Source of the DNA: Rhodovulum sp. P5
GTDB taxonomy: Bacteria; Pseudomonadota; Alphaproteobacteria; Rhodobacterales; Rhodobacteraceae
DNA length: 64,000 bases
Assembly (NCBI RefSeq): GCF_002079305.1
Contig: NZ_CP015043.1
Span: forward strand, 1 to 64,000
Direction of reading: 5' to 3'
Under the pieces are notes generated by a model. It saw only the letters and a program-made list of their open reading frames with translations, did no database searches and was not told the DNA's origin. The first letter of the stretch is position 1. Each line of letters starts with the position of its first letter. This document shows positions 22,734 through 49,227 of this stretch, piece after piece. The translations under genes were made by a program, and so were the position numbers.

Positions 22734-24338
22734 TTACTCGTCGGGGATGAACCTCGGCAGGGGTTCGTTCAGGGCGCGCAGCACCTCCATCAGGCGGGCC
22801 TCGGCGGTGTCATTGTCTTCGCCGCGGCCGATCAGCGTGGTCAGCCGGATCAGGGCCCCGTCGGTCCGCCCGGTTCTTACCCCGTCGATCATCAGCCAGA
22901 ACTTGGCGGCGTAGTCGAGCGCGATGCGGCGGTCCTTCTGCTGGAACCAGTAATAGGCCATCATGCGCACCTCACCCTTCTGGATGATCGCGCGGTTGAT
23001 GTTGAAGGGGGTGTCGCTGCCAAGCGCCTCGGCGACGTCGGTGCGTTCCAGCCAGGCGATTTCCCAGCCCGCCCCGGGCAGGCAGACCTCGGGGGAGTGC
23101 ACGCCGCCATGGCTCTGGTCCTCGTACCAGGCCATGAACAGGCTGACCGGGGTCGGGGCGCCGCTGCGGACCAGCGTGACATCGTGATAGTCGTCCGCCC
23201 CCAGGCCTTCCTCGATATTGGGGGACAGGATCCGGCGCGGCCCGGACTGGTGCCAGTCGCCCAGTTGCCGCGGGAACAGGACAAAGCTTTCCCGCTCGGG
23301 CACGACGCTGCCGCGGTCGGGCAGCACCTTGAGCGAGCCTGCGGCCATCAGCACGACCAGCGCGGCGGTGATCAGCGCCGCCGACGGGCGGACATGGCGC
23401 AGCCGCATGAATTGCGGGGCCAGCCCGTGGGAGTCGAGATCCAGCGCCTCGGCCAGGGACATCTTGCTGGGATGCAGGAACAGCATCAGCCGCGCCATCC
23501 CGAACAGGATGATGATGGAGCACAGGAAGATCACCCAGCCCTCGAAGAAGTGGGAGAAGCCTTCCAGCCAGTCGAGCCCGTAGACCTGCACGATGATGCC
23601 CGCCAGCGCGATCCGGACCGAGTTCATGAAGATCGCGATCGGCACTGCCGAGACCAAGAGGATCGCCTTGTGCCATTTCGGCCCCTGATAGAGCACCGCG
23701 AAGATGTAGGAGAAGCTGAGGATCGGGAACATGTAGCGCAGCCCCGAACAGGCCTCGGCCACATGCATCTTGGTCACGCCCAGATCGATGATGTTGCCTT
23801 CCAGGAAGACCGGCACCGACAGAAGCTTCAGGAACCACACCCCCAGTTCGGAGGAGAAGAACTGCAGATGGGTGGAGACCTTGTAATAGATCGTCCCCGG
23901 CAGCGGCAGCATGTAGACCAGATGCAGCACCGGCGGCCAGAAATTCCGCCCGGTCTGCCAGCCGAAGCTGATCAGCAGGATGCCGCCCACCCACAGGATC
24001 AGGCCATAGGCGACGAAATCGGGAATGCCGCTGAACGCCCCCAGCGTGCCCAGAAGCAGGGCAAAGACGATCAGGGTCATCCCCGGCCAGCGGTCCGATT
24101 TCGGCCCCGGCTGCGGCGGGTACTGTTTCAGCTCGCGCAGGAACATCAGCCCCGACAGCACCGGGATCAGGGGGCCGTGGCTGTATTCGGGGCGCTGCCA
24201 GGCATGCAGCATCGCCGCGATGCCTTCCCAGAAGAAGATCCCCGCCCCCGCAATGGCCACGAGAAGCCAGACCAGTCCCCAGTTGAGAGCCAGTCCCGAT
24301 TGTGAACGCTGCGAGGATCCCGGGATGCTGATAGCCAT
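22734..24338 (-). CDS. xrtD: VPLPA-CTERM-specific exosortase D with EpsI domain
   Basis: A 534-residue membrane protein. The first 290 residues form the exosortase: YSHGPLIPVLSG near the N terminus, Cys197 in EACSGLRYM, Arg242 in MNSVRIA, and His263 in FSHFFEGW. These are the transpeptidase triad of the family. Residues about 310-534 are a periplasmic EpsI-like domain (HSPEVCLPGAGWE, near 395-410). This fusion is the known form of exosortase D, which cleaves VPLPA tails and is thought to transfer the protein to a cell-surface glycan. A substrate is encoded 3.7 kb away (18350..19060). The start at 24338 has AGGAAG six bases upstream; an ATG at 24365 lacks a ribosome site. The gene diverges from a methyltransferase. 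Confidence 0.92.
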   Translation of the reverse strand: MAISIPGSSQRSQSGLALNWGLVWLLVAIAGAGIFFWEGIAAMLHAWQRPEYSHGPLIPVLSGLMFLRELKQYPPQPGPKSDRWPGMTLIVFALLLGTLGAFSGIPDFVAYGLILWVGGILLISFGWQTGRNFWPPVLHLVYMLPLPGTIYYKVSTHLQFFSSELGVWFLKLLSVPVFLEGNIIDLGVTKMHVAEACSGLRYMFPILSFSYIFAVLYQGPKWHKAILLVSAVPIAIFMNSVRIALAGIIVQVYGLDWLEGFSHFFEGWVIFLCSIIILFGMARLMLFLHPSKMSLAEALDLDSHGLAPQFMRLRHVRPSAALITAALVVLMAAGSLKVLPDRGSVVPERESFVLFPRQLGDWHQSGPRRILSPNIEEGLGADDYHDVTLVRSGAPTPVSLFMAWYEDQSHGGVHSPEVCLPGAGWEIAWLERTDVAEALGSDTPFNINRAIIQKGEVRMMAYYWFQQKDRRIALDYAAKFWLMIDGVRTGRTDGALIRLTTLIGRGEDNDTAEARLMEVLRALNEPLPRFIPDE

Positions 24339-24449
24339 GAAATCTTCCTGGAAAATACGATTCATACCAGTCCCGCAGCTATGCCAGATCGGCCGTGAAA
24401 GAGCTATCCGGTAGGGCGATTGCTGACCTAAATTTTACATTTCAGGGTA

Positions 24450-24608: not shown

Positions 24609-25370
24609 ATGCCCCAGTCGACGACCTCTGTTTCGTACAAGGAATTCAGCCGGGTCTATGCCGAAAGCATCCAGGGGCGGACCTTTGTCGAGGACCTGTC
24701 CTACTACAAAGCCTGCAAGCCCCGCTTCTGGGAAGCGTTCCGCCGGATCGACGCGCTGGGGCTGCCGCCCGGCAGCAAGGTGCTCGATATCGGGGGCGGG
24801 ATCATGGCGGTTCTGGCCGCGCGCCTGCTTGGCTTCGATGCGATGGTGGGCGATGTCAACGAACGGGCCCGCGCCGATGTCGAGGAGCTTGGCCTGGGCT
24901 TCGTCATCTTCGACCTGTTCTCGGACGGGGCGCCGCCGGTGACGGGGCTTGACCTTGTCATCCTGACCGAGGTGATCGAGCATATCCCCCAGCCGCCCTA
25001 TCTGGTGCTGCAGCGGATCGCCAAGCTGATCGCCCCCGGCGGGCGGCTGTTTCTGACCACGCCCAACGGGCACCGGATCCGCAACATCCTCTACATGATG
25101 GCGGGCAAGGAAATCCTCGGCATCTACCGCTATCCCGAACCGGGAATGGCGCTTGGCCACCAGCATGAATACACGATGAAGCAGATGCTGTGGCAGGCCG
25201 GGCATGCCGGGTTCGAGGTCGAACTGGCAGAGTATTACGAGGACGGGTTCAAGGGCGCGACCCTGCCCGCCCGGATCGCCTGGATGGTGGTCAAGCCGCT
25301 GTCGCGAATCCCGCGCCTGCGCAACAGCATGGTCATGGTGCTGCGCCGCCCCGCCGGAGACGGCGCGTGA
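24609..25370 (+). CDS. Class I SAM-dependent methyltransferase
   Basis: A 253-residue soluble enzyme with motif I VLDIGGGIMA (about 58-67), an acidic residue at the end of beta-2 (VGDVNE), LVILTEVIEHI (motif II, about 113-123) and LIAPGGRLFLTTPN (about 138-151). It belongs to the group of methyltransferases common in surface-polysaccharide clusters, and probably methylates a sugar of the repeat unit or its chain end. Its stop overlaps the GTG start of the next gene (GTGA), so it is coupled with that glycosyltransferase. No good ribosome site precedes the ATG. Confidence 0.82.
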   Translation: MPQSTTSVSYKEFSRVYAESIQGRTFVEDLSYYKACKPRFWEAFRRIDALGLPPGSKVLDIGGGIMAVLAARLLGFDAMVGDVNERARADVEELGLGFVIFDLFSDGAPPVTGLDLVILTEVIEHIPQPPYLVLQRIAKLIAPGGRLFLTTPNGHRIRNILYMMAGKEILGIYRYPEPGMALGHQHEYTMKQMLWQAGHAGFEVELAEYYEDGFKGATLPARIAWMVVKPLSRIPRLRNSMVMVLRRPAGDGA

Positions 25371-26665
25371 CCGAAACACCCCGCCCGCGGGTTCTGGTCA
25401 TCGCCGAAGCGGCCAATCCCGAATGGGTCAGCGTGCCGCTTGTCGGCTGGTCGCTGGCCGCGGCCCTGCGGCAGGTGGCCGATGTGCATATCGTCACGCA
25501 AATCCGCAACCGCGATGCGTTCCTGCGCGCAGGCCTGGTCGAGGGGCAGGATTTCACCGCGATCGACAGCGACGCGGTCGCCCGCCCGTTCTGGCGCCTG
25601 GCCAAGCTGCTGCGCGGGGGCACGGGCACGGGCTGGACGATCAACACCGCGATGGCCAGCCTGTCCTATTTCTATTTCGAACATCTGCTGTGGCGCCGGT
25701 TCGGCCCCGATATCGGGGCGGGGCGCTATGACATCGTGCACCGGGTGACGCCGCTGGGGCCGACCTCGGTCTCGCCGGTGGCCGCGAAATGCGCCGCGGC
25801 CGGCGTGCCCTTCGTGATGGGGCCGATCAATGGCGGCGTGCCCTGGCCGGCCGGGTTCGATGCCGAACGCCGGCGAGAGCGGGAATGGCTGTCCTATGTG
25901 CGGGGCATCTACAAGATGCTGCCGGGGCGGCGGCGGATGCTGCGCGCGGCGGCGGCGATCATCGCGGGCTCGCACCACACCGCCGGCGAATATCCCCGCG
26001 CCTGCCGCGACCGCATCGTCTATATCCCCGAGAACGCGATCGCGCCGGAACGGTTCAACCTTGTGGCCGAACAGCGGCCGGACGGCCCGCTGCGGGGCTG
26101 TTTCATCGGCCGGCTGGTCCCCTACAAGGGCCCCGACATGGCGCTGGAGGCCGCCTTGCCGCTTCTGGCCGCGGGGCACATGACGCTCGACATCATCGGC
26201 GACGGCCCCCTGCGCCAAGGCCTGGAAGACATGGTCCGCGACAACGGGCTGGACGGCGCCGTCACCTTCCACGGCAACCTGCCCCATACCGAGGTGCAGA
26301 AGGTCGCCGTGCAATCGCACCTTCTGGTGTTTCCCTCGATCCGCGAATTCGGCGGCGGCGTGGTGCTGGAAGCGATGGCACTGGGGGTGGTCCCGGTCGT
26401 GGCCGACTATGCCGGGCCCGGCGAACTGGTGACCGACGACACCGGGATCCGGATCCCCATCGCCACGCGGGCCGAGACCGTCTCGCGGTTCCGCGACCGG
26501 CTGGAGGCGCTGGCCCGCGACCGCACCGCCCTGCCCGCGATGGCCGCGGCCGCCCGCGCCCGGATCGCGTCGCATTTCACATGGGCCCGCAAGGCCGAAC
26601 AGGTGTGCAAGGTCTATGACTGGGTGCTGTCGGGGCGCCCGGCCCCGCCGCCGCGTTTCTTCTGA
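25367..26665 (+). CDS. Glycosyltransferase family 4-type
   Basis: A 432-residue GT-B enzyme. The N-terminal half has VLVIAEAANPEWVSVPLVGWSLA, and the middle FVMGPINGGVPWP is seen in several GT4 enzymes. The C-terminal half has GCFIGRLVPYKGPDMALEA, LDIIGDGPLRQGLE and FPSIREFGGGVVLEAMALG, the nucleotide-sugar-binding part with its conserved Glu pair. Donor and acceptor cannot be told. The GTG start at 25367 overlaps the stop of the methyltransferase. Followed 66 bp later by a GT2 gene on the same strand. Confidence 0.87.
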   Translation: MTETPRPRVLVIAEAANPEWVSVPLVGWSLAAALRQVADVHIVTQIRNRDAFLRAGLVEGQDFTAIDSDAVARPFWRLAKLLRGGTGTGWTINTAMASLSYFYFEHLLWRRFGPDIGAGRYDIVHRVTPLGPTSVSPVAAKCAAAGVPFVMGPINGGVPWPAGFDAERRREREWLSYVRGIYKMLPGRRRMLRAAAAIIAGSHHTAGEYPRACRDRIVYIPENAIAPERFNLVAEQRPDGPLRGCFIGRLVPYKGPDMALEAALPLLAAGHMTLDIIGDGPLRQGLEDMVRDNGLDGAVTFHGNLPHTEVQKVAVQSHLLVFPSIREFGGGVVLEAMALGVVPVVADYAGPGELVTDDTGIRIPIATRAETVSRFRDRLEALARDRTALPAMAAAARARIASHFTWARKAEQVCKVYDWVLSGRPAPPPRFF

Positions 26666-26731
26666 CCCCGCGGGGGCCAGGGGGATTTTTAATCATGCCC
26701 GGCCGTGCCGCTTGTCAGAAGGGATGTGCTC

Positions 26732-27688
26732 ATGCAGAACCGCGCCATGACCCAGTCCGCCCCCGCCCCGCGCGCCTATGTCGTCGTCTCGCCCTGCCGG
26801 AACGAGGCGCAGTACATGCGCCGCACCCTTGACAGCATGGTCGCCCAGACCGAACGCCCCGCGAAATGGGTGATCGTCGATGACGGTTCCACCGACGCCA
26901 CGCCCGACATCCTGGCCGAATATGCCGCCCGGCATGACTGGATTTCCGTCGTGCAGAAACCCGACCGCGGCCACCGGGCCGTCGGCCCCGGCGTGATCGA
27001 GGCGTTCTATGCCGGGCTCGAAACCGTGTCGCTGGACGACTATGCCTATCTCTGCAAGCTCGACCTCGATCTGGATCTGCCGCCGCGCTATTTCGAGATC
27101 CTGATGGACCGGATGGAGGCCAATCCCCGGATCGGCACCTGTTCGGGCAAGGCCTATATGCGCGTCGAGGACGGCAGGCTTGTCAGCGAAGAGATCTCGA
27201 ACGAATTCTCGCTGGGCATGACCAAGTTCTTCTCGGTCGCCTGTTTCCGCCAGATCGGCGGGTTCGTGCACGAGGTGATGTGGGATGCCATCGACTGCCA
27301 CACCGCGCGGATGAAGGGCTGGACCCCGGTCAGCTGGGACGACCCCGAATTGCGCTTCGAACATCTGCGGCCCATGGGGTCGAGCCAGAAAAGCATCTTC
27401 ACCGGGCGCCGGCGCCACGGCTTCGGGCAATATTACATGGGCACCGATCCGCTGTTCCTGATCGCCTCGGCGATCAACAAGTCGCGCCAGCGGCCCTATG
27501 TGCTGGGCGGGCTGGCCATCCTGCAGGGCTATTTCGGGGCGATGCTGCGCGGGGCGGCCCGCCATGACGACCCCGAGCTTACGGCGTTCATCCGTGCCTA
27601 TCAGCGCCGCGCGCTGGTGCAGGGCAAGACCCGCGCCGTCGCCGCGATCGAGGCCGAGCGCGCCCCCGCCTGGTCCCCGGCGGGCTGA
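26732..27688 (+). CDS. Glycosyltransferase family 2
   Basis: A 318-residue GT-A enzyme. It starts with the nucleotide-binding strand AYVVVSPCRNEAQYMRRTLD and has VIVDDGSTDATPDILAEYA (about 46-64). The metal-binding acidic stretch is KLDLDLDLP (about 106-114), and a catalytic-base region lies around WDAIDCHTARMKGW. No membrane anchor. It probably adds one sugar to the lipid-linked unit. The start at 26732 has AAGGGA at good distance; an upstream in-frame ATG at 26705 is less likely. It converges on the spike cassette with a 39-bp gap. Confidence 0.87.
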   Translation: MQNRAMTQSAPAPRAYVVVSPCRNEAQYMRRTLDSMVAQTERPAKWVIVDDGSTDATPDILAEYAARHDWISVVQKPDRGHRAVGPGVIEAFYAGLETVSLDDYAYLCKLDLDLDLPPRYFEILMDRMEANPRIGTCSGKAYMRVEDGRLVSEEISNEFSLGMTKFFSVACFRQIGGFVHEVMWDAIDCHTARMKGWTPVSWDDPELRFEHLRPMGSSQKSIFTGRRRHGFGQYYMGTDPLFLIASAINKSRQRPYVLGGLAILQGYFGAMLRGAARHDDPELTAFIRAYQRRALVQGKTRAVAAIEAERAPAWSPAG

Positions 27689-27727: not shown

Positions 27728-30724
27728 TCAGTCGGGCACTTCCAGCGCGCCCAGGGACAGATAGGCCGGGCGCTCCTTGCCGGTCAGGTCGTCGATGACC
27801 TTGTGGTCCTCGATATCCACGACCTGCCCGAGGATATCGGTTGCGCTGAGGGTCGGCGCGTAGAGCGCCACCGTATCCGCCGGGGTCGCCCAGGTGCTGT
27901 CGGGGGGCAGAAGGTTGCCGCCGATATCGACATAGACCCGCAGCACATGCCCCGCCTGCCAGATCTCTGCGGTGTTGTCGTTCTGCACCGTGATCTGGCT
28001 TGCCCCGAAATCCGTCACCGAGGCATGGGTCGTGTTCCCGTATTCGGCGTTGCTGTCATAGGTGAACAGGTGATACCCCGCCCCGTTCACCATGGCCTGC
28101 GTGACATTCGGCGGATAGTCGATCGCCACCGTGCCGCCCGGCGAGACATCGGCGGTCAGGACATGTTCGGCCATCCGGTGCCGGTAGTTCGGCCCCTGGT
28201 ATCTGGGCGTCCACAGAAGCGTGGCGGTGTCGAAATCGTCGAGGTATTTTCCCGCGGCATCGGGGTTGAGCAGGAGGTTGTAGGCCTGCTCAACCTGCGG
28301 AAAGGCCGCGGGGTCGTAATGCACCGCGACGGGGGCCGCGCCGGGCTCTCCGTATGGCGTGCGGTTGACGATGGTGTTGTGGTAGACCTTGACCGGCAGA
28401 AGCTTGGCGCCCTCCTTGTCCAGATAATCGGCATCGAGCAGAACGAACGCGACGGCGGGAAGAATTGTCCGGTCGGCGATTTCCGGGAAGACGGCCAGGT
28501 TGTTGCGAATGGTGAACCCGCCCGTCCCGAGCGTGAAGAACTTGGCCGAATGCCAGGACCCGACCATCACGTTGTGATGGAACAGCACGTTCTGCGGAGA
28601 GACGTTGTTCTTGAACCCCGCGGCGGTGTGGTTCGTCGCCCCCGCCGACACCAGGCCGCCGCCGCCCTCCATGCTGCAGCGGGTGATGTTGCCGCGCGCC
28701 CCGATCAGGCCATCCTGGTTCCAGCGCAGAACCGGCTGCATCGCCCGGTATTCGGGATCGGTCAGCCCCGACCAGCCCCGGTTCGTGAACATGTCGCAGG
28801 CATCGATGACGACATCCCGGCAGGCCTTGAACCGGACGAAATGCTGGTTGTGGTACCCTTCATAGGTGTCGAATGCCAGCTCGCCGGTTTTCGTCGGGGC
28901 GTTGTAGCCATGTTTCACGCCGCCGCTCAGGGCGTCGGGACTGTCGGCCAGCCGGCAGCCCAGAAAGGCGAAGTCCCGGGCGCCATCGGTGAAGATGACA
29001 TAGTCGCGCCAGTTCGTGGCAACGGTGTTGTGGATGCACCAGCCGCCGACCTGCCGCGCCTCGTAGGGCGGATCCTGCGACGGGTAGAGCGCGGTGGAGC
29101 ACTGCCACATGAAACACATCTCGAAACCGGAGATCGTGCAGTTCGAGACGAGCACCGTATCGGTATAGCCGTACCCGGTCGAGATCGCGGGCGACTTGTA
29201 TTCTTCGCCGACGCTGCTGAAGGTCTCGGTCGTGCTGTCCCAGGGCCCGCGCAATTCGATGCCGTAAAGCGCGAATTCCCGCTGCAGCACCGATCCGTCC
29301 TGCGAGCCGAAACTGCCCAGTTCGAACATCCGCCCGGTCAGGGCATTGGTGTGGACGATGACCGGGTCGGCCCCGTTGCCGGGGCCCGCCACAAGATGCA
29401 GGTGGGGGTAGGCTTCGACAAGCTGCATGGTTGCAAGCTCATGCACCGTGTCGCGCGGCAGCATGATCCGCAGGGCATGCTTGTCGCGGTTCGCCGGCAG
29501 CCTGTTCTTGGCCGTCAGCAGCGTGTTGAGGACGCGGTACCAACCGTCGCCCACCCCCGGCGCGGCCTGCGCCGTTGCCAGGTCGTCCCGGTGCACCCAG
29601 TAGTCCTCGGGCAAGGTGTCATCGATATACCAGGTCTCGGTCGGCAGCGTGGCGTGATTGGGCAGGGTGAAGACCGCCTCCGGATCGCGCACCGGGGCCC
29701 CGTCGCCGGCCAGGTCGTTGTCGTCCTCGCCGATCCTGTACCGGGTCTCGGCATATTTGCCGGTGGCGGGCTCATAGACCTTGCAGGTCACGGTATAGCT
29801 GCCGGGCGTCTCATAGACATGGGCGACATAGGGGCCGAAAGCGGTGTTCGCGTCCCGGTGGTCGTCAAGCAGGTTCTCGGGCGCGGTAAAGGTCGCCCCC
29901 GCATCGCCGAAATCCCAGACATAGATCAGGTCGTGCCAGTGGGGGTCATAGACCTCGCCCTGCCCCGCGGGCTGGGTGTCGAACCCGCCCACCGTCGCCT
30001 GGAAGAAGATCCGTTCCGGCGCGGTGCGCAGCGCAGAGCGGCGCATGGCGATCCGGACCGTGGGAACCGTGACCGAGCGCAGGGACTCCTGCACGTCCAC
30101 GGTGAACCCGCTATCGGCCTCTCCGCCGCTATTCCTTGCGCGCAGGATGATGTTCTGCCCGGTCGCGGCGGCCGCCGGCGTCCCCTCCAGAAGGCCCGCG
30201 GCACTCAGCGTCAGGCCCGCCGGAAGCGCGGCAGAGGACGGGGCCAGTTCGAAGGACAGGCCCTCCCCGGTGAAATCGGCCGAAAGATCCAGCCCCGTCA
30301 CGGGCGTCTCGGCGGTCAGGAGCAGATCCGGCAGGGCGCCGGCGGCCACCGGCGGCGTATAGGTCACCGTGATCGTTTCGGTCGTTTCCGCCACGTCGCC
30401 GCTGACATGGGTGCCCATCGCGACGCCCGCGATGACCTCGCCATCGGACACGGTATAGGGCAGGGTGACGGCCGCACCGTCCACCACAAGACCCGCTTCC
30501 AGCGTCACCTCGGGAAACCCCGGATCGCCGGAAGTGACGATATCGGCGGCCGCGATGGTATGGCCGTGACGATAGGGTGCGGCGGCCCAGGCCGCCGCGA
30601 TCGCCGGCACCCGTTGCCCCCAGAAGCCGACGGTCAGCGGATCGGTGCTGCGTGGCCCCTGCACCGCCTGTACGGTCACGCTGGAGCCTGCCATTCCCGA
30701 TGACAGAAGCCGGATCTTGATCAT
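27728..30724 (-). CDS. Tailspike-like beta-helix protein with Ig-like and PKD modules
   Basis: A 998-residue protein, third gene of the spike cassette. Residues about 1-45 (IKIRLLSSGMAGSSVTV) have a phage-structural style. An Ig/cadherin-like module follows (about 135-215: ELAPSSAALPAGLTLSAAGL) and a PKD-like module (about 270-340: YVWDFGDAG, AHVYETPGSYTVTCKV). A long parallel beta-helix runs from about 400 to 800 (VLVSNCTISGF, VVIDACDMFTNRGW, VLFHHNVMVGSWH), then a compact C-terminal domain. No Sec signal. The layout suits a receptor-binding or polysaccharide-cleaving spike. The start overlaps the previous gene's stop (ATGA, 30721..30724). A free-living polysaccharide lyase is the alternative; no active site can be named. 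Confidence 0.72.
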   Translation of the reverse strand: MIKIRLLSSGMAGSSVTVQAVQGPRSTDPLTVGFWGQRVPAIAAAWAAAPYRHGHTIAAADIVTSGDPGFPEVTLEAGLVVDGAAVTLPYTVSDGEVIAGVAMGTHVSGDVAETTETITVTYTPPVAAGALPDLLLTAETPVTGLDLSADFTGEGLSFELAPSSAALPAGLTLSAAGLLEGTPAAAATGQNIILRARNSGGEADSGFTVDVQESLRSVTVPTVRIAMRRSALRTAPERIFFQATVGGFDTQPAGQGEVYDPHWHDLIYVWDFGDAGATFTAPENLLDDHRDANTAFGPYVAHVYETPGSYTVTCKVYEPATGKYAETRYRIGEDDNDLAGDGAPVRDPEAVFTLPNHATLPTETWYIDDTLPEDYWVHRDDLATAQAAPGVGDGWYRVLNTLLTAKNRLPANRDKHALRIMLPRDTVHELATMQLVEAYPHLHLVAGPGNGADPVIVHTNALTGRMFELGSFGSQDGSVLQREFALYGIELRGPWDSTTETFSSVGEEYKSPAISTGYGYTDTVLVSNCTISGFEMCFMWQCSTALYPSQDPPYEARQVGGWCIHNTVATNWRDYVIFTDGARDFAFLGCRLADSPDALSGGVKHGYNAPTKTGELAFDTYEGYHNQHFVRFKACRDVVIDACDMFTNRGWSGLTDPEYRAMQPVLRWNQDGLIGARGNITRCSMEGGGGLVSAGATNHTAAGFKNNVSPQNVLFHHNVMVGSWHSAKFFTLGTGGFTIRNNLAVFPEIADRTILPAVAFVLLDADYLDKEGAKLLPVKVYHNTIVNRTPYGEPGAAPVAVHYDPAAFPQVEQAYNLLLNPDAAGKYLDDFDTATLLWTPRYQGPNYRHRMAEHVLTADVSPGGTVAIDYPPNVTQAMVNGAGYHLFTYDSNAEYGNTTHASVTDFGASQITVQNDNTAEIWQAGHVLRVYVDIGGNLLPPDSTWATPADTVALYAPTLSATDILGQVVDIEDHKVIDDLTGKERPAYLSLGALEVPD

Positions 30725-31611
30725 GAAAGCTCCTCCAGCGTGAAATCATAGACCTGCAGGATTTCGCCCGCGGCGCTGAAATTCGGATACAGGACGAGAT
30801 AGCGTGCCGCCGCACTGCCATCGTCGACCGTGAAGGTTTCGTCGATGGCGATCTCTCCGGGACCGGCCCCTGCAAGGTCCAGCTTGAGAAAGTTCCCGGC
30901 GCCAAGTTCCATGTTGTTGCGGATCGCCAGCTGGCTGTTGGCCCCCATGGCGGCCGACACCTGGATCGTGCCGACCAGCCGATAGCTTTTCGCCTGGGAC
31001 GCATCGCCAAGCGTCTCGGTCAGCCATGCCAGACGATAGGACACGGCCTGGACGGTCTCGAATTCGCGGCCCCCCGCGATGGTCCCGTTGTCCTGCCAGA
31101 AACCGGGATAGATCAGGGCCGGTTTCACGGTCATGTCGATCAGGGCCGGCACCGGGCCCAGAAGCGCGTTGGACACCGCTTCGGCCGACCCGTTCGAATC
31201 CGTGACCGTTTCCCGCAATTGCAGGCTCTTTCCCGCATCCTCGGTGCCGGTGACGAAGCTCTCGTCGGTGGCCCCGTCGATCTCGACCCCGTCGCGCAAC
31301 CATTGCCGCGCAAGGGTCGGCGCGGGGCCGGACCGGGCCCAGAGACCGGCAACCGATGTCAGTGTTCCCGGCGTGGCGGACTCCACGATGACAGGGGGCA
31401 CAAGCGCGACCGGGCCGGCCTCCAGAAGGGCCACATCCACGATATAGGTCCCGTCGTAATACTGGGTGCCCGTCAGCGTGATCTCGACGGCTTCCCCGGA
31501 CACGGCGGTGATTTCGACCTCTCCGCCGAGCGAGGTGATCGAAAGCGCGGCCAGAACTTCCTGCAACCGGGAATGTGTGTTCGGCACGTTGGCGACCATC
31601 GGACCGATCAT
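30721..31611 (-). CDS. Ig-like-domain protein of the spike cassette
   Basis: A 296-residue protein with no signal peptide. An N-terminal helix (THSRLQEVLAALSI) leads into beta-rich modules. An Ig-like one spans about 80-160 (LARQWLRDGVEIDGATDESF, KSLQLRETVTDSNGSAEAVSNAL), and a jelly-roll-like C-terminal part spans about 165-296 (SYRLVGTIQVSAAMGANSQLAI). This kind of Ig module is common in structural proteins of Rhodobacterales phages and gene transfer agents. It starts one base after the spike-base stop (ATG at 31611; 31629 and 31599 are alternatives) and overlaps the next gene by four bases, so the three are coupled. Function is inferred only from position. Confidence 0.65.
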   Translation of the reverse strand: MIGPMVANVPNTHSRLQEVLAALSITSLGGEVEITAVSGEAVEITLTGTQYYDGTYIVDVALLEAGPVALVPPVIVESATPGTLTSVAGLWARSGPAPTLARQWLRDGVEIDGATDESFVTGTEDAGKSLQLRETVTDSNGSAEAVSNALLGPVPALIDMTVKPALIYPGFWQDNGTIAGGREFETVQAVSYRLAWLTETLGDASQAKSYRLVGTIQVSAAMGANSQLAIRNNMELGAGNFLKLDLAGAGPGEIAIDETFTVDDGSAAARYLVLYPNFSAAGEILQVYDFTLEELS

Positions 31612-31612
31612 G

Positions 31613-31876
31613 TCAAACCAGTCCCACAAGTTCCGCGGCGGTCGTGTTGGTGGCCAGAACCCTGTTCACCCGGATCGGGTAGAGAGAGCCCCCCTGCATG
31701 TCCTTCAGGACCAGGCTTGCGCCCCCCGCCAGTTCCACGGCGACATCCCCGCCGGTGCCGACATAAAGCGCCCGGGTCACTTCCTGCAGATCGACGCTGT
31801 CGTCGGGGGTGACGGCGAACCCGTTCACCAGGGGGGAGGTCAGGCTGACATTGAACCGGGCGAATTCGTCGGGCAT
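31613..31876 (-). CDS. Spike base protein of the RcGTA Rcc01079 family
   Basis: An 87-residue protein that matches the small head-spike base family: MPDEFARFNVSLTSPL, then AVTPDDSVDLQEVTRALYVG, then a beta-rich end IRVNRVLATNTTAAELVGLV. In Rhodobacter capsulatus the homologue (Rcc01079) anchors the fibre that lets gene-transfer-agent particles bind capsular polysaccharide. AGGAG precedes the ATG at good distance. It heads a three-gene minus-strand cassette and diverges from the Wzy-like polymerase. No capsid, portal, terminase or tail gene exists on the replicon, so it is not part of a complete particle here. Confidence 0.85.
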   Translation of the reverse strand: MPDEFARFNVSLTSPLVNGFAVTPDDSVDLQEVTRALYVGTGGDVAVELAGGASLVLKDMQGGSLYPIRVNRVLATNTTAAELVGLV

Positions 31877-32077: not shown

Positions 32078-33604
32078 GTGGTACTGTTTGCCCTGCTGTC
32101 CTGGCCACTGGTCATGCTGGTACTTTTCCGCCAGTTAAGTGTCCCGCTTGCCTTGCTGATCTCGCTTGTGGGCGGCTTCCTGCTCTTGCCGCCGAACATC
32201 GTCGTTCTCAACCTGCCGCTTCTGCCGCCGGTCAACAAGGACACCGTTCCGGCCCTCATGGCGCTGGCGATCCTGCTGAGCAAGCCGAGCCGGGAAAAAC
32301 TGGGCTTCCTGCCGACGGCCCCCATTCCGCTGCTGTTGCTTGTCTTCCTGGTGGCCGGGGCGTTCCTGACCGCGTTGACCAACGGCGATACCGTCATCTC
32401 GGGCGGGCGCGTGCTGCCGGGCATCGAATCATACGATGCCTTTTCCGATGTTCTCATCGCGCTGATGATGCTGTTGCCGTTCTTCTTCGCGCACCGGTTC
32501 CTGGCCGCGACGGATCTTCACCGCCTGTTTCTGAACGTCCTTGTCATCGCCGGCCTGGTCTATTCCCTGCCCGCCCTGTTCGAGGTGCGGATGTCGCCCC
32601 AGCTGAACATGTGGATATACGGGTATTTCCCCCATGAATGGATCCAGCATGTGCGGGAAAACGGCTTCCGGCCGGTGGTCTTCCTCAAGCACGGGCTGTG
32701 GCTGTCGACCTTCTTTTCGCTGTCCACGCTGGCCGCGGCGGGGTTGGCCCGCTTCGGGCCCGAAACGCACCGGCGGCGTTACCTGCTGGCGATGATCTGG
32801 CTGCTGATCACGCTGGTGCTGACCAAGTCCTTCGGGGCGGTGCTCATCACCCTGCTTCTGGTGCCGCCGATCCTGTTCCTGGGCCTGCGCGGGCAGTTCC
32901 TGGTGGCCGCCTTCTTCAGCGCGGTCGTGCTGCTCTACCCGATGCTGCGCGCGGTCGACGTGGTCCCCACCGAGCAGATCATCGAAACGGTGGAAACCGT
33001 CGCGCCGGACCGGTCCCGGTCGCTGGCCTTCCGGGTCAGGAACGAGGACATGCTTCTGGCAAAGGCGGATGAGCGCGCGCTTTTCGGCTGGGGCGGCTGG
33101 GGGCGGCAGTTCATCTACGGAGAGTCCGGGCAATCGGAAACGATTTCCGATGGCACCTGGATCGTTGTCATGGGGCGCACGGGCTGGACCGGCTATCTTG
33201 GCACTTTCGGTCTTCTGACCCTGCCGGTCATCCTGATGGCGTTTCGGCACCGCCGGTTCAACCTGGCGCCCGAAACGGCGATCCTTGCGATGATCCTGGT
33301 GGCCAACCTGATCGACCTGATCCCCAATTCCAGTATCACCGTGCTGACCTGGATGATGGCCGGCGCGCTTTGGGGCCGGCTGGCCCTCGGGACGGTCACC
33401 GCGGAGGAGACATCGCCGGCCGACACCCCGCCCCAGCCGTCCTCGCCCTACAGCCGCCAGTTCCGGCGCCGGCGCCGCGGCGGCCTGCCCGAACCCGACC
33501 AGGCGGCCATCTCGGCCGACCCGCCCGATCCGGCCCCGACCGGCAAGACCCCGACCGGCAAAAAGCGGCCCGTCCGCCATTCCCGTGCCGAAATCATCCC
33601 CTAA
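32078..33604 (+). CDS. O-antigen/EPS polymerase-like membrane protein (Wzy type)
   Basis: A 508-residue protein with about 11-12 membrane spans in the first 440 residues and a basic, Pro-rich cytoplasmic tail (about 440-508). Between spans lie the larger periplasmic loops typical of Wzy/WaaL proteins: one has the sequence GYFPHEWIQHVRENGFRPVVFLKHG in pieces near residues 180-205, and a second lies near 305-370 with GGWGRQF and DGTWIVVMGRTGW. Wzy enzymes are poorly conserved, so this is recognised by topology and context beside glycosyltransferases and a flippase. A GTG at 32078 was taken as start with GGAG 11 bases ahead. First gene of a probable operon with two GT2 genes. Confidence 0.75.
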   Translation: MVLFALLSWPLVMLVLFRQLSVPLALLISLVGGFLLLPPNIVVLNLPLLPPVNKDTVPALMALAILLSKPSREKLGFLPTAPIPLLLLVFLVAGAFLTALTNGDTVISGGRVLPGIESYDAFSDVLIALMMLLPFFFAHRFLAATDLHRLFLNVLVIAGLVYSLPALFEVRMSPQLNMWIYGYFPHEWIQHVRENGFRPVVFLKHGLWLSTFFSLSTLAAAGLARFGPETHRRRYLLAMIWLLITLVLTKSFGAVLITLLLVPPILFLGLRGQFLVAAFFSAVVLLYPMLRAVDVVPTEQIIETVETVAPDRSRSLAFRVRNEDMLLAKADERALFGWGGWGRQFIYGESGQSETISDGTWIVVMGRTGWTGYLGTFGLLTLPVILMAFRHRRFNLAPETAILAMILVANLIDLIPNSSITVLTWMMAGALWGRLALGTVTAEETSPADTPPQPSSPYSRQFRRRRRGGLPEPDQAAISADPPDPAPTGKTPTGKKRPVRHSRAEIIP

Positions 33605-33671
33605 GGGCGTGCCGTAACCCCTCCCCTTGCGGCCCGTTCCGCCGATCTCTTCCCGAAGGAGTCGCCTTCCC

Positions 33672-34742
33672 GTGTCCTCCGATCCTGCCATCGATATCTC
33701 GGTCGTCGTCGTCAATTACGGCACGGCCGAGCTGACCATCGCGGCTGTCGAAAGCGTCCTCACGCGCAGCCATGGCGGCCGGCGCGTCGATGTCCATCTT
33801 GTCGACAATGCCTCTCCGAACGGGGACGGCGCCCGGCTTGCGGCCGCGATGACCCGCCCCGGCTGGGCCGGCCGGGTGCATTTCTACCCCGAGACCGTCA
33901 ATCACGGCTTCGGGCGCGGCAACAACCTGGTGTTCCGGCGGCTTGCGGCGCAGCCGGTCCCGCCCCGCCATGTCTTCCTGCTCAACCCCGATGCCCGTCT
34001 CGACAACGAGGCGATCGCGATCCTGGCCGACACGCTGGAGGCCAACCCCCAGGCCGGGTTTGCCGGGGCGGCCGTGGAACGGCCCGACAGCGGCGCGGCC
34101 ACCGCCGCCTTCCGCTTCCCCAGCCTCCTGTCGGAATTTTCCCATCACCTCGCTTTCGGGCCGGTTGCAAAACTGTTTGCGCGCTGGCGGGTGCCGCTGC
34201 CCCCCGACCATCCCGAGGGACAGGTCGACTGGCTGGTGGGCGCCGCCGTCATGGCCCGGCTGGACGTGCTGAAGCAGATCGATTTCTTCGATCCCGCCTT
34301 CTTCCTCTATTACGACGAGGTCGACCTGATGCAGCGGGCGCGGGACGCGGGCTGGACCTCTCTCTATGTCCCGCGGGCGCGCGTGCACCATGCCGAGGGC
34401 GCGGCCACCGGGGTGCGCAGCGGTGAATCCTTCCGCAAGCGCCGCCCGGCCTACTGGTACCGCTCCTGGGGATGGTATTTCCGCCGGCATCACGGCCGGG
34501 CCGGGGCGCTTGCGATCCTGGCCGCGACGCTGACCGGCACGGTTCTCAACCAGATCCAGCGGCGCCTGCGCCGGCTGCCGCCCTCGGGCGCGATCTGGGC
34601 GTTCTGGGATTTCGCGACCGTATCGGCCTGGACGATCCTGTTCGGCACGACGGCCAGCACCTCCGGCCTGCCCGACCCGGCCCCCGCCGACGGGGGCGGG
34701 CATCCGGCCGGCACCGTCCGCCTGCAAAAGGACGCCGGATGA
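33672..34742 (+). CDS. Glycosyltransferase family 2 (rhamnosyltransferase-like)
   Basis: A 356-residue GT-A enzyme: ISVVVVNYGTAELTIAAVESVL at the N terminus, HLVDNASPNGDG (about 41-52), VNHGFGRGNNLVFRRL, LLNPDARLDNEA (the DxD-like site, about 100), and FFLYYDEVDLMQRARDAGW (about 213-231). This pattern is frequent in rhamnosyl-type transferases. GTG start at 33672 with GAAGGAG ten bases upstream; an earlier in-frame TTG lacks a site. Its stop overlaps the next start (ATGA at 34739). With rmlA, rmlC and rmlD present, rhamnose is a plausible donor sugar but not shown. Confidence 0.87.
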   Translation: MSSDPAIDISVVVVNYGTAELTIAAVESVLTRSHGGRRVDVHLVDNASPNGDGARLAAAMTRPGWAGRVHFYPETVNHGFGRGNNLVFRRLAAQPVPPRHVFLLNPDARLDNEAIAILADTLEANPQAGFAGAAVERPDSGAATAAFRFPSLLSEFSHHLAFGPVAKLFARWRVPLPPDHPEGQVDWLVGAAVMARLDVLKQIDFFDPAFFLYYDEVDLMQRARDAGWTSLYVPRARVHHAEGAATGVRSGESFRKRRPAYWYRSWGWYFRRHHGRAGALAILAATLTGTVLNQIQRRLRRLPPSGAIWAFWDFATVSAWTILFGTTASTSGLPDPAPADGGGHPAGTVRLQKDAG

Positions 34743-35689
34743 TCGGCGCCGTTCTCATCGGCCGCAACGAGGGCGAGCGGCTGGTGCGCTGTCTGGCCTC
34801 GGTCGCCGGACAGGCGGACCGTGTCGTCTATGTCGACAGCGGCTCCACCGATGGCAGCGCCGCGGCCGCCCGCGCCGCCGGGGCCGAGGTGGTCGATCTC
34901 GACATGGACCGGCCCTTTACCGCCGCGCGGGCGCGCAATGCCGGGCTGGCCCGGCTGACCGAAACCGGCCCGGCGCCCGATCTGGTGCAGTTCGTCGATG
35001 GCGATTGCGAGGTGCAGCCGGGCTGGATCGCCACCGCCGCGGCCTTTCTGGCCGACCATCCGCAGGTCGCCGCGGTCTGCGGCCGGCGCCGCGAACGCTT
35101 CCCCGCGGCCTCGATCTACAACCGCCTGATCGACACCGAATGGGACACGCCGGTGGGCGAAGCCCGCGCCTGCGGCGGCGATGCGCTGATGCGGGTCGAT
35201 GCGTTGCAGGCGGTGGGCGGCTTCAACCCCGCGCTGATCGCCGGGGAAGAGCCCGAGCTTTGCGTGCGGTTGCGGCAGGCGGGCTGGACGATCTGGCGCC
35301 TCGATGCCGAGATGACCCTGCATGACGCCGCCATGACCCGCTTTTCCCAGTGGTGGACCCGCGCGCGCCGGGCCGGCCACGCCTTTGCCGAAGGCGCCGC
35401 CCTGCACGGGGCCCCGCCCGAACGCCACAAGGTCCGCGAAACCCGCCGGGCGCTGGCCTGGGGCGTGGGGCTGCCGCTGCTGACCCTTCTGGGGCTGGCG
35501 ATCACGCCCTGGGCGTTGGTCCTTCTGCTGGCCTGGCCCGCGCAGATGCTGCGGCTGCGGCTCAAGGGCGAAAGCGGGCTGCGCGCGGTATTCCTGACCC
35601 TGGCCAAGCTGCCCGAGGGACAGGGCGTGCTGAGTTACTGGCGCCGGCGGCTGACCGGCGGCCCCATCGCGCTGATCGAATACAAGTAG
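34739..35689 (+). CDS. Glycosyltransferase family 2
   Basis: A 316-residue enzyme: IGAVLIGRNEGERLVRCLAS, VVYVDSGSTDGSAAAARAAG (about 27-46), VQFVDGDCEVQPGW (DxD, about 81-94), GGDALMRVDALQAVGGF and GEEPELCVRLRQAGW (about 165-180). Two hydrophobic segments near 245-275 suggest membrane association. ATGA overlap with the previous gene gives translational coupling. It converges on rmlA with a 43-bp gap. It differs in size and C-terminal anchor from the other two GT2 genes. Confidence 0.87.
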   Translation: MIGAVLIGRNEGERLVRCLASVAGQADRVVYVDSGSTDGSAAAARAAGAEVVDLDMDRPFTAARARNAGLARLTETGPAPDLVQFVDGDCEVQPGWIATAAAFLADHPQVAAVCGRRRERFPAASIYNRLIDTEWDTPVGEARACGGDALMRVDALQAVGGFNPALIAGEEPELCVRLRQAGWTIWRLDAEMTLHDAAMTRFSQWWTRARRAGHAFAEGAALHGAPPERHKVRETRRALAWGVGLPLLTLLGLAITPWALVLLLAWPAQMLRLRLKGESGLRAVFLTLAKLPEGQGVLSYWRRRLTGGPIALIEYK

Positions 35690-35732: not shown

Positions 35733-36614
35733 TCAGCCCGTTTCGGCCAGCCGGGCGAGGAACTTGCCGTACCGGGTCTTCTTGAAAAAGGCCGCATGTT
35801 CCAGCAGCGCGTCGCGGTCGATCCAGCCCTTGCGATAGGCGATCTCCTCGGGCGCACTGATCTGTAGCCCCTGCCGTTCCTGCAGGGTGCGCACGAAATT
35901 GCCCGCGTCCAGAAGGCTTGCATGGGTGCCGGTGTCCAGCCACGCATAGCCGCGGCCCATCCGCTCCACCGTCAGCGCGCCATCGGTCAGATAACCCTGC
36001 AACAGATCGGCGATCTCAAGCTCGCCCCGGGCCGAGGGGGTCAGCGCCCGGGCCCGCGCCGGCGCGGTGCCGTCCAGGAAGTAGAGCCCGGTGACCGCGT
36101 AGTCCGAGGCCGGGCGCTCGGGCTTTTCGATGATCTCGACCGCCTTCGTGCCGGTGTCGTCGAAGGTGATCACGCCATAGCGTTCGGGGTCGGTGACCTG
36201 ATAGCCGAAGACCGTGCCGCCGGTTTCCTGCCGGTCGGCATCCAGCAGGATCTCGGGCAGGCCGTGGCCGAAGAAGATGTTGTCGCCCAGCACCATCGCC
36301 GAGGGGCAGCCGTCCAGGAAGTCCTCGGCCAGCAGATAGGCCTGCGCCAGCCCGTCGGGCGAGGGCTGCTCGATCCAGGTGAAGGACAGGCCCCATTTCG
36401 CCCCGTCCCCCAGCAGGCGCTTGAACTGCGCCTGGTCCTGGGGGGTGGTGATGATCGCGATCTCGCGGATACCGGCCAGCATCAGCGTGCTGAGCGGGTA
36501 ATAGATCATCGGCTTGTCATAGACCGGCAAAAGCTGTTTCGAGACGCCCATGGTGATCGGGTAAAGCCGGGTGCCCGAGCCCCCGGCCAGGATGATGCCC
36601 TTGCGTTCGCTCAT
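35733..36614 (-). CDS. rmlA: Glucose-1-phosphate thymidylyltransferase
   Basis: A 293-residue enzyme that makes dTDP-glucose from glucose-1-phosphate and dTTP, the first step to dTDP-deoxysugars. Signature [16 protein letters not shown] at the N terminus, then [31 protein letters not shown] (about 108-119), [21 protein letters not shown] and [15 protein letters not shown]. Full family length. AAGGAC precedes the ATG at 36614. It faces away from the other rml genes, which lie at 40491..43009 on the opposite strand, so the pathway is split over two units. Confidence 0.95.
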
Positions 36615-37078
36615 GTCGTCCGTCCTTGTTCCTGATCGCCCCGGTTCCGCCGTCCGGGCCTGTTCGGGGCCGGTGTTCCGCAGGGTCGCGCGACAATCAA
36701 GTCCGGAATGGCAGCATGCTTTCCGAAGCGCGACCAGCGCGGCAGGACAGCCATAGCGCGCGACAGGCGGCGGCCGGCCCGGTGCGCGGGGGCGGGCGGC
36801 GTTTCGAATCGGACTTTGAGGCAGGATTTCGACAGCCCCGCAAGGGGTCGGCCCGTCAATGCGGCAAATTCTGGGCAGATTTTCGAAGGGAAGCGGAAAC
36901 AGAGCGCCGGTTTCGCCGCCACTGTCCCGGACCGTGCCGCAAAGCAGCGAGAATACGCCTTTCTTCTGGCAAGAAGCGGACAAAGACCCTAGAAATTAAG
37001 GCAGGGTTGGGGCAACGGCGATCCCGGTATTTCGGACATCGTCGAATTGTAACGATATATTTTCGGGGGTTCTAAACC
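36615..37078. other. 464-bp divergent intergenic region (rmlA / sugar transferase)
   Basis: No gene is supported; the open frames are Arg-rich without ribosome sites. The 80 bp before 37079 are A+T-rich (TTGTAACGATATATTTT at 37045..37061) and probably hold the promoter of the sugar transferase, although no clear -35/-10 pair stands out. A small inverted repeat CTTCT-GGCA-AGAAG lies near 36962..36975. Confidence 0.4.
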
Positions 37079-40281: not shown

Positions 40282-40490
40282 GGGGCCCTTCCGTATCCTT
40301 TTTCACATACAGATATAGCCCCGACCGTCCCGCCCCCCAAGCACCCCGTGAACAAAACGACCCCGGACGCAACATTCCGCCGGAACGGGAAACCGTTTCG
40401 CCCCAAAACTCCCCTGCCGGGCACGGCCGACTTGAAAACGCCATGTTCCGGAAGTATCAGCGCCGCAGTTTTTCGGGAGAAATGCGTTTC

Positions 40491-41051
40491 ATGCAGCCAG
40501 ACATCGTATCGCTCGCCATTCCGGAAGTGAAGCTCATCACCCCGCGAAAATTCGGGGACAGCCGCGGCTTCTTTTCCGAGGTCTACAACAAGCGCAGCTT
40601 CGCCGCGGCCGGGATCGAGATCGACTTCGTGCAGGACAATCACTCCCTGTCGGGCACCGTCGGCACCGTGCGGGGGTTGCATTACCAAAGCCCGCCCTTC
40701 GCCCAGGACAAACTGGTGCGGGTGCTGAAAGGCGCGATCTTCGATGTCGCGGTCGATCTGCGCAAGGGCTCGCCCACCTACGGGCAGCATGTCGCCGCCA
40801 CGCTGACCGCCGAGGACTGGACCCAGATCCTCGTGCCCATCGGCTTTGCCCACGGCTTCATGACGCTGGAGCCGGACACCGAGGTCGTCTACAAGGTGTC
40901 GAATTACTACGCGCCCGACAACGACCACGGGATCCTGTGGGACGACCCCGCCCTTGGCATCGACTGGCCGCTGAAAGGCATCGACTTCGAAGTGTCCGAC
41001 AAGGACCGCGTGCAGCCCAAGCTCGCCGATATCACCTCCCCCTTCGCATAA
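40491..41051 (+). CDS. rmlC: dTDP-4-dehydrorhamnose 3,5-epimerase
   Basis: A 186-residue RmlC cupin: ITPRKFGDSRGFFSEVYNKRSF, VQDNHSLSGTVGTVRGLHYQ (catalytic His about 63), KLVRVLKGAIFDVAVDLRKGSPTYG, VPIGFAHGFMTLEPDTEVVYKVSNYYAP, and WDDPALGIDWPL. It converts dTDP-4-keto-6-deoxyglucose to the L-lyxo form on the way to rhamnose. Start at 40491 chosen by distance from GGGAGA. First gene of the rmlC-SDR-rmlD unit. Confidence 0.93.
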   Translation: MQPDIVSLAIPEVKLITPRKFGDSRGFFSEVYNKRSFAAAGIEIDFVQDNHSLSGTVGTVRGLHYQSPPFAQDKLVRVLKGAIFDVAVDLRKGSPTYGQHVAATLTAEDWTQILVPIGFAHGFMTLEPDTEVVYKVSNYYAPDNDHGILWDDPALGIDWPLKGIDFEVSDKDRVQPKLADITSPFA

Positions 41052-41102
41052 GCCCGACCGGCCGGGCGGCCGGGGGGTCACATCCCTATCAAGGAGGTCG
41101 CC

Positions 41103-42134
41103 ATGACCGAGATCAATCATGTCCTCGTGACCGGGGGCGGCGGCTATATCGGCACCGTTCTCATCCCGATGCTGCTGGCCGATGGCTACAAGGTCCGCGC
41201 GCTCGACCGGTTCTTCTTCGGCCGCGAATTGCTGCCCGAAGATGACAACCTGGAAATCGTGGTGGAAGACACCCGCCGCCTGGCCCCCGAACACCTGGCC
41301 GGGATCGACGCGGTGATCGACCTCGTGGCGATCTCCAACGATCCCTCGGGCGAGCTGTTCCAGGACGCCACCATGGCGATCAACCGCGACAGCCGCATCG
41401 CCTGCGCGAAGCTGGCCAAGGCGGCGGGCGCCAAGCGCTATATCCTGCCCTCGTCCTGCTCGATCTACGGTTTCCAGGAAGAAGGCGTCATTTCCGACGA
41501 GACCTGCCCGACCAACCCGCTGACCACCTATGCCCGCGCCAACGAGATGGCAGAGCATGGCGTGCTGCCCCTGGCCGATGACACGTTCTGCGTGACCGTG
41601 CTGCGCCAGTCCACGGTCTATGGCCTGTCCCCGCGGATGCGGTTCGACCTGGCGATCAACGGCATGACCTATGGCGCGTGGAAGACCGGCAAGCTGCCGC
41701 TGATGCGCGACGGCAGCCAGTGGCGCCCGATGGTGCATGTGGCCGACACCGCCAGCGCGCAGAAATTCATGCTGACCGCGCCCGCCGACAAGGTGAATGG
41801 CGAACTCTTCAATGTCGGGTCGGCGGCGAACACCTACCAGCTTGGGCCGCTCGGCGAAATCGTCGCCAACCGCGTGCCCCGCGATGTGGAAATCGAATGG
41901 TACGGCGACCCCGACCATCGCAGCTATCGCGTGGCCTTCGACAAGATCGAGGCGCTTGGCTGGAAAGCCTCGAAAACCGCCGAGGACGGGGTGGACGAGA
42001 TCTGTGCAGCCCTTGAGGCCGGGACCACCGACAAGACCACGAAGACCATCACCCTTGAATGGTACAAGGAACTGGTCCGCTGGCAGCAGATCGTCCATGC
42101 CACGGAGCTTGACGGAAAGATGCTTGCGCTATGA
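41103..42134 (+). CDS. Extended SDR nucleotide-sugar epimerase/dehydratase-like protein
   Basis: A 343-residue extended short-chain dehydrogenase with NAD-binding VTGGGGYIGTVLIP (9-22) and SSCSIYG (117-123) for the serine. The active-site position normally YxxxK reads YARAN (Tyr143, Asn147), so the usual lysine appears replaced. Late motifs are QSTVYG, WRPMVHVADTASAQ and NVGSAANTY. It lies between rmlC and rmlD, where rmlB usually sits, but lacks the TDEVYG motif and size pattern of RmlB. AAGGAGG precedes the ATG; ATGA overlap joins it to rmlD. Role inferred as a nucleotide-sugar modifier. Confidence 0.8.
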   Translation: MTEINHVLVTGGGGYIGTVLIPMLLADGYKVRALDRFFFGRELLPEDDNLEIVVEDTRRLAPEHLAGIDAVIDLVAISNDPSGELFQDATMAINRDSRIACAKLAKAAGAKRYILPSSCSIYGFQEEGVISDETCPTNPLTTYARANEMAEHGVLPLADDTFCVTVLRQSTVYGLSPRMRFDLAINGMTYGAWKTGKLPLMRDGSQWRPMVHVADTASAQKFMLTAPADKVNGELFNVGSAANTYQLGPLGEIVANRVPRDVEIEWYGDPDHRSYRVAFDKIEALGWKASKTAEDGVDEICAALEAGTTDKTTKTITLEWYKELVRWQQIVHATELDGKMLAL

Positions 42135-47369: not shown

Positions 47370-47466
47370 CGCCTGCCTGTCCTTACTGCCCGCTCCGGCC
47401 TGCTCTGGCCGGTCATTGCCGGCCGCCCCGTTTTTCGGGGTTTCATTGACACCCCACCCTAGGGGC

Positions 47467-47662
47467 TGTGGATAAGTCCGTCCAGCCCGGAGCGGGATCC
47501 GATCGGGGGTTCGGAGTCGGGATGACGTGGGATCGGAGTCGCCTTTTCGGGGGTTCAGAGTCACCCCTGCCCCCGCGATACCCCCCTGCCCTTTTGATTT
47601 CCAAGGATTTTCCTGTTGCCAGGGATCCCCCTTAACTATGAAATAACATCAAGATAACAAAG
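47467..47662. other. Probable origin of replication (iterons, DnaA box, AT-rich stretch)
   Basis: The interval between repA and parA has the parts of an iteron origin. A perfect DnaA box (TGTGGATAA, 47467..47475) is followed by three iterons (47504..47562) and an A+T-rich stretch (47632..47662, around AAATAACATCAAGATAACAA) that could melt. All are within 200 bp of the repA start. Confidence 0.75.
47504..47562 (-). repeat. Three RepA iterons with 22-bp period
   Basis: On the minus strand GACTCTGAACCCCCG (47562..47548), GACTCCGATCCCACG (47540..47526) and GACTCCGAACCCCCG (47518..47504) repeat every 22 bp, two turns of the helix. RepA dimers or monomers would bind on one face. Confidence 0.8.
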
Positions 47663-47763
47663 ACCCCGCCGGGACAGCGCCCCCACCCAGCGACATCGCC
47701 CCGCGAATCGCGCCGGATTTGCTGAGAAAAGACAGGGGAAGAGACGTTCTGCTTGGCGTATGC

Positions 47764-47793: not shown

Positions 47794-47811
47794 ATACATC
47801 GGGGGACGAGC

Positions 47812-49197: not shown

Positions 49198-49198
49198 A

Positions 49199-49216: not shown

Positions 49217-49227
49217 CTGACCGCCCG

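Follow-up and report, generated by a model that had tools for sequence, protein, structure and literature searches.

Which cells receive the DNA carried by gene transfer agents (GTAs), and why do these agents persist? A 64,000-nucleotide stretch from Rhodovulum sp. P5 (contig NZ_CP015043.1, positions 1 to 64,000; hereafter the window) bears on this question. It contains three coupled genes that begin with a relative of the head-spike base of the Rhodobacter capsulatus GTA (RcGTA), and these genes are located inside a polysaccharide locus on a plasmid. We lean toward the interpretation that they form a cassette providing head spikes to the RcGTA-type particle of the same cell, placed within the locus of the polysaccharide that the spike probably recognises. 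If spike and coat are inherited as one mobile unit, transfer would be aimed at coat-sharing cells, and kin- or plasmid-directed exchange would become testable.

A Head-Spike Base and Two Coupled Genes

A sequence-only reading of the window had described three coupled minus-strand genes starting with a homolog of the RcGTA base protein Rcc01079. The frames are indeed open and encode proteins of 87, 296, and 998 amino acids (Table 1). The homology on which that reading hinged is borne out by the NCBIfam equivalog model NF048002 ('spike base protein, RCAP_Rcc01079 family'), which the 87-residue protein matches over positions 1-85 of 85 (E 8.9e-32, 109.2 bits, cut-off 28). Furthermore, the protein matches phrog_12296 (E 1.5e-25) and the solved RcGTA base in the PDB (6tb9, E 4.3e-12). 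Based on the similarity to 6tb9, the window base is predicted to form a pentameric jellyroll on the capsid vertices. A search of about 5.8 billion proteins with this base returned 45 at E <= 0.001, the query included, one of which was named a spike base by its source.

The second gene follows directly downstream of the base, as does the head fibre gene in RcGTA. Its frame comprises 302 amino acids from a TTG at 31629; the likely start is the ATG at 31611, yielding 296 amino acids, and from this ATG the one-base gap to the base noted earlier holds. Its PHROG matches are to a family of unknown function (E 2.3e-8), to a virion structural protein (E 2.1e-5), and, at a weak level, to Hoc-like proteins (E 0.02). 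It had been described as an immunoglobulin (Ig)-module protein; this is weakly supported, with no Pfam profile matching over its cut-off. Over 149 residues, the protein shares 36% identity with the gene at the same position in a genome of another genus (G080, locus L116), whose N-terminus, MIGFSLGLNGAG, scores 7 for the anchor pattern of the RcGTA fibre. More generally, 32 of 59 genes that follow a base start with an anchor-like alternating pattern (score 6 or more), compared to 63 of 1398 background frames.

The third gene overlaps the second by 4 bases and encodes 998 residues, both as first described. The protein contains an Ig-like module (PF05345, 33.4 bits, cut-off 24) and a PKD module (PF00801, 25.3 bits, cut-off 23.5). 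Of the earlier description as a beta-helix protein with a PKD module, the PKD part thus passes the Pfam threshold, while the beta-helix is predicted by a structure model and not by a Pfam match to the protein itself. The model shows a right-handed beta-helix at about residues 350-823, and a structure search (Foldseek, pdb_via) indicates that the predicted fold resembles polysaccharide lyases, epimerases, and phage tailspikes. By sequence, no PDB entry matches at E <= 0.001. In a PDB profile search with the protein family, most matches were to collagenase PKD domains, and a lacto-N-biosidase matched weakly (E 0.008). Pfam Beta_helix matches two of eight family members (best E 0.007).

Polysaccharide lyase activity is a candidate function of the 998-residue protein, as judged from the model. 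The same fold also allows a reading in which the base is an unrelated passenger and the 998-residue protein, possibly along with its partner, works in the exopolysaccharide pathway as a polysaccharide lyase, epimerase, or adhesin (compare RbmB and AlgG); we regard this reading as doubtful. Reuse of the cassette as a surface adhesin, which had been suggested before, is less likely, since no strong export signal can be seen at the N-terminus.

Spike Bases Recur Beside Polysaccharide Genes

Is the association of a spike base with polysaccharide genes specific to this plasmid? Of 295 genomes from the window's family, one per genus, 102 contain a match to NF048002. The survey covered the best 100 of 113 base places other than the two of Rhodovulum sp. 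P5 (115 listed; the weakest 13 left out), each with up to 10 kb on either side. Controls were 40 random stretches from the same contigs, and 95 polysaccharide and 46 phage proteins served as references. At least one polysaccharide reference gene is present at 71/100 base loci versus 5/40 controls (Fisher p 2e-10), and at least three are present at 42/100 versus 2/40 (Fisher p 6e-6). Paired over 40 shared contigs, with one contig carrying two bases averaged, polysaccharide genes occur at 31 base loci versus 5 controls (Wilcoxon p 7e-7). The 95 polysaccharide references were drawn from annotated regions of plasmids, which mostly surround bases, with six drawn from the window. Because this might be circular, the count was repeated with 28 base-independent references from three plasmids chosen by the 998-residue protein, and 59/100 base loci versus 1/40 controls were positive. 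The proposed encoding of a spike base together with polysaccharide genes is therefore a pattern of the family and not unique to the window plasmid. At least two phage reference genes occur at 3/100 base loci and 3/40 controls.

Among named plasmids, 11 of the 15 inspected (out of 24 matches) carry the base in a polysaccharide locus. The other four are a phage-like Tritonibacter plasmid, an unannotated Paracoccus replicon (Paracoccus versutus, H24, counted outside polysaccharide loci), and plasmids of Cereibacter and Thioclava FTW29. The 52 named genome loci received a polysaccharide label (at least three genes) in 9 cases, a weak label in 16, a phage label in 11, and none in 16, suggesting that the polysaccharide rule is strongest in the window's family. 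The base lies inside an RcGTA-like cluster in 10 of these 52 loci (10 of the 11 with a phage label), all from Sphingomonadales or Brevundimonas (L039, L044, L046, L049, L060, L051, L057, L058, L062, and L063).

Relatives of the whole cassette are found as well. In G080, the base is followed in order by a gene of 379 amino acids resembling the second and a 730-residue frame resembling the third; an O-ligase-like gene flanks the divergent side and a glycosyltransferase gene the rear, again in a polysaccharide locus. On plasmid p1 of Jannaschia CCS1, the base, two intermediate genes, and a relative of the 998-residue gene lie in a polysaccharide locus, about 4 to 6 kb from partition and replication genes. 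In G126 and G185, base and 998-like gene are separate within one locus. Finally, Jannaschia W003, Ruegeria SCSIO 43209, and Tateyamaria have a 998-like gene in a polysaccharide/XrtD locus. In Ruegeria, its neighbour is an annotated O-antigen ligase, the one among the references used to which the ligase-like protein of the window is most similar.

These relatives bear on the possibility that the cassette is a decayed prophage remnant carried by chance, which had been named as an objection to the sequence-only reading. The base family is common in viruses, and a partial match without annotation exists on pRLO149_63 of Roseobacter litoralis. However, all three frames are open and coupled in the window, and the same frames are conserved and open in G080. 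Moreover, the polysaccharide context recurs across the base tree: the label needs 30 changes among 126 bases (shuffled mean 36.4), that is, it is slightly clustered (5/500 shuffles as low), in a poorly resolved tree of 85 columns with 49 of 122 inner branches open. In keeping with the earlier reading, no capsid, portal, terminase, or tail gene was matched by Pfam or NCBIfam among 28 other window frames (the scan left out frames lying at roughly 1-11 kb and 56-64 kb, and PHROGs were not applied to the flanks). We consider a decayed prophage highly improbable and reject it.

An RcGTA-Type Cluster in the Chromosome

The suggestion to look for a chromosomal GTA cluster and its spike genes proved fruitful. 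At C1:195-209 kb, terminase, portal, protease, capsid, tape measure, and megatron genes of RcGTA type follow in order (PHROG and Pfam), and the cluster has no base of its own. A TTAA-N7-TTAA site, which we take to be a CtrA-like motif, lies before this cluster (L066, G000:C1, ~209 kb). Only one further base was found in the genome; it shares 49% identity with the window base and is located apart from the GTA, in a satellite-like capsid element. This element (L005 7975-16041, G000:C1:65974-74040) encodes an integrase, portal, capsid, large terminase, and the second Rcc01079-family base, together with frames read from the sequence as protease- and HNH-like and no evident tail genes; it is possibly a satellite that encodes a capsid. 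Comparable sets of capsid genes adjoin a base in G151 (L093), G130 (L181), and Croceicoccus (L054).

Across the family, 259 of 295 genomes gave a match to the GTA marker PF13547. Bases are more common in genomes with the marker (97/259) than in those without (5/36; p 0.005), where 20 of the 36 marker-less genomes are listed as such and 16 were inferred from absence in the list of 259. This association also informs an alternative in which the spikes are used by prophages or capsid-carrying satellites instead of the GTA and the plasmid supplies host-recognition parts in trans to any capsid that accepts the base. Phages often carry the base family (88 records, including 72 from Flavobacterium phages), and it lies near the end of the structural genes in the three phages examined, RcapMu, RcapNL, and Pben1. 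The satellite-like element of the same chromosome, in which the next frames downstream of the base are not fibre-like, and the five base-carrying genomes without a marker match would also suit such a role. On the other hand, the satellite has its own base, the bases are enriched where the GTA marker is present, and few family loci hold two or more phage reference genes, as described above. We therefore judge service to prophages or satellites unlikely, and a head spike for the chromosomal GTA remains the reading that we prefer.

Motifs upstream of the bases were also compared. TTAA-N7-TTAA precedes 5/100 bases versus 2/659 control frames. TTAAC ranks first among its 30 permutations (before 42/100 spike bases, within 260 nucleotides), and GTTGCG ranks first among its 60 (42/100 spike bases). 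None of the three precedes the window base. Since the control stretches are often coding and the motifs are missing before the window base, we draw no conclusion on promoters.

Do Spike and Coat Travel Together?

If the spike recognises the polysaccharide encoded beside it, fibre and neighbouring genes might vary together. Fibre-position genes are present in 60 of 112 loci. Pairs with homologous fibres share at least three other genes in 11/79 cases, compared to 11/1691 for other pairs. After allowing for base similarity, the correlation between fibre and neighbour genes is 0.22 (0/2000 shuffles as high). This co-variation fits joint inheritance and does not demonstrate recognition. Five replicons of Sulfitobacter, Marinovum, Roseivivax, and G141 (L069, L070, L071, L075, and L147) have the fibre-position gene in common (54-86%); their bases are 39-73% identical, and three to seven other genes are shared in the listed pairs. 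In four named plasmids of the Sulfitobacter/Marinovum/Roseivivax group, the base follows parAB.

Several observations weigh against a GTA spike directed at the plasmid's own polysaccharide. The window fibre scores 4 of 9 for an IALGLGLGL-type anchor, which is within background (the RcGTA fibre scores 9) and speaks against the simplest form of this interpretation. Residues 1-219 of the 998-residue model, its N-terminal fifth, are of low confidence and unreliable. By the rule used, 35 of the 100 base loci lack an adjacent gene of at least 150 amino acids, and 29 have no polysaccharide reference gene in reach (26 with genes of neither kind, three with phage genes), where the 46 phage references may miss divergent prophages. 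Conversely, no base was found in the stretches in which 998-residue relatives occupy polysaccharide loci in Jannaschia W003, Ruegeria SCSIO 43209, and Tateyamaria (L010-L012). The window base is not preceded by the CtrA-like site seen before the cell's own GTA cluster. Among the five base carriers in which no GTA marker was found, G141 is a single contig with a rich polysaccharide locus. Lastly, the fibre/neighbour correlation weakens to r 0.08 (28/2000 shuffles as high) once one plasmid group is left out.

Taken part by part, the pairing of a GTA-type spike cassette with a polysaccharide locus is very likely, and a putative action on the GTA with recognition of the plasmid's own polysaccharide is likely. 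Similar pairings in many related bacteria suggest that coat and key travel together. Specificity switching by plasmid exchange is a good hypothesis. Mechanistically, the cassette would equip the chromosomal GTA in trans: the base pentamer may sit on the GTA capsid and the 296-residue fibre may dock on the base. The 998-residue protein, either attached or co-released, might bind or cut polysaccharide and perhaps trim the coat. Particles could thereby reach cells bearing the same plasmid-type coat. A bolder extension, which we advance tentatively and consider rather less probable than its opposite, resembles a lock and key. Within this bacterial family, the receptor-recognition part of the GTA would have become detached from the genes for the particle and linked instead to polysaccharide loci that are exchangeable and often carried on plasmids. 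Gain of a plasmid would then change coat and spike together, steering exchange toward plasmid sharers and away from others and creating plasmid-defined mating groups. As a genomic rule, a spike base beside a polysaccharide locus would allow a GTA receptor to be proposed from sequence.

The Polysaccharide Locus and Its Replicon

The cassette lies between a glycosyltransferase gene and a polymerase-like gene, in agreement with the initial description (Table 1). The O-antigen-ligase/polymerase-like protein has no Pfam or NCBIfam match and shares 47% identity with the annotated O-antigen ligase of Ruegeria SCSIO 43209 and 43% with that of Jannaschia CCS1. The frame of the group 1 glycosyltransferase overlaps the preceding frame, and its true start is thus probably further downstream. 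In the rhamnose pathway, the epimerase/dehydratase occupies the RmlB position and does not pass an rmlB cut-off. Homologs of chain-length and tyrosine-kinase proteins are also encoded on the plasmid, below their respective cut-offs.

Table 1. Cassette, polysaccharide, and replication genes in the window
Feature	Position	Strand	Evidence
Exosortase XrtD, VPLPA-CTERM type	22734..24365	-	TIGR04152 637 bits, cut-off 400
Group 1 glycosyltransferase	25190..26665	+	PF00534 81.7 bits
Family 2 glycosyltransferase (GT2), one cassette flank	26705..27688	+	PF00535 63.7 bits
998-aa protein, candidate polysaccharide-binding or -cleaving spike	27728..30724	-	Ig-like and PKD modules, predicted beta-helix
Probable head-spike fibre, 296 aa	30721..31611	-	One-base gap after base
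Spike base protein, Rcc01079 family, 87 aa	31613..31876	-	NF048002, phrog_12296, PDB 6tb9
O-antigen-ligase/polymerase-like protein, divergent from cassette, other flank	32078..33604	+	
Two family 2 glycosyltransferases (33627-34742, 34472-35689)	33627..35689	+	PF13641/PF00535
RmlA, dTDP-rhamnose pathway	35733..36983	-	TIGR01207 452.6 bits, cut-off 360.65
RmlC, epimerase/dehydratase, RmlD	40443..43009	+	TIGR01221, PF01370, TIGR01214
Plasmid replication and partition: RPA-type initiator, ParA and ParB-like	46362..50318	- (initiator), + (ParA, ParB-like)	PF10134 325 bits, PF13614; TIGR03454/TIGR00180 below cut-off

The window belongs to contig G000:C5 (64,103 bases), one of five contigs in a 4.47-Mb genome. 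The first and last 4,778 bases of the contig are identical (window coordinates 1-4778 and 59326-64000), indicating a circular molecule of 59,325 bases. As the assembly is uncircularised, genes at the contig ends appear twice in the window. With its PF10134 initiator, rmlA, rmlC, and rmlD and its circularity by end redundancy, the molecule is a plasmid replicon with rhamnose genes.

Comparison With Known Systems

Plasmids with a rhamnose operon and a role in biofilms occur in roseobacters, according to excerpts of the reports (PMC8224337, PMC9426580). The window plasmid resembles these RepA-I plasmids in its RPA-type initiator, rhamnose genes, size of about 60 kb, and exopolysaccharide locus. 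It differs in the spike cassette, which those excerpts do not mention.

The 998-residue protein shares a predicted right-handed beta-helix fold with the polysaccharide lyase RbmB and with capsule-specific phage tailspikes, at 8-14% identity. By description, it can also be likened to TspA (Rcc02623), the detachable tailspike of RcGTA: TspA too is a beta-helix protein belonging to a GTA, and action on matrix polysaccharide has been proposed for it. According to excerpts of a 2026 preprint, TspA is a biofilm-degrading beta-helix protein that was lost in some Rhodobacterales, and tspA sits beside lysS in others (PMC13420450). Unlike the window gene, tspA (763 residues) is chromosomal and lies beside lysS. 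In the 17 kb around lysS of Rhodovulum sp. P5 (L226, G000:C1:3345000-3362000), no gene for a beta-helix protein as large as TspA was seen; the only frame above 530 amino acids has 653 and reads as topoisomerase-like.

The closest precedent is the RcGTA head spike, in which a Rcc01079 pentamer carries one Rcc01080 fibre anchored by residues 2-10 (PMC7296036, in the excerpted text). That spike genes lie beside capsule genes is already published for R. capsulatus: by the excerpted account, the two groups adjoin and are co-regulated, and a tagged fibre binds capsulated cells better (PMC10218006), so the capsule binding invoked in the sequence-only reading has a published basis. Among the titles and opening abstracts examined on GTA head spikes, capsules, plasmids, and exopolysaccharides, none reports a family-wide or plasmid-borne pairing of spike and polysaccharide. 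Like the R. capsulatus genes (Rcc01079/GhsA and Rcc01080/GhsB, beside rcc01081-rcc01086), the window cassette combines a base of family NF048002 with a fibre candidate right after it, and it adjoins surface polysaccharide genes at a distance from the GTA cluster. In contrast to R. capsulatus, the window fibre has no clear IALGLGLGL-type anchor, the locus contains rhamnose and XrtD genes, and the cassette is plasmid-borne and includes a third gene encoding the 998-residue beta-helix protein.

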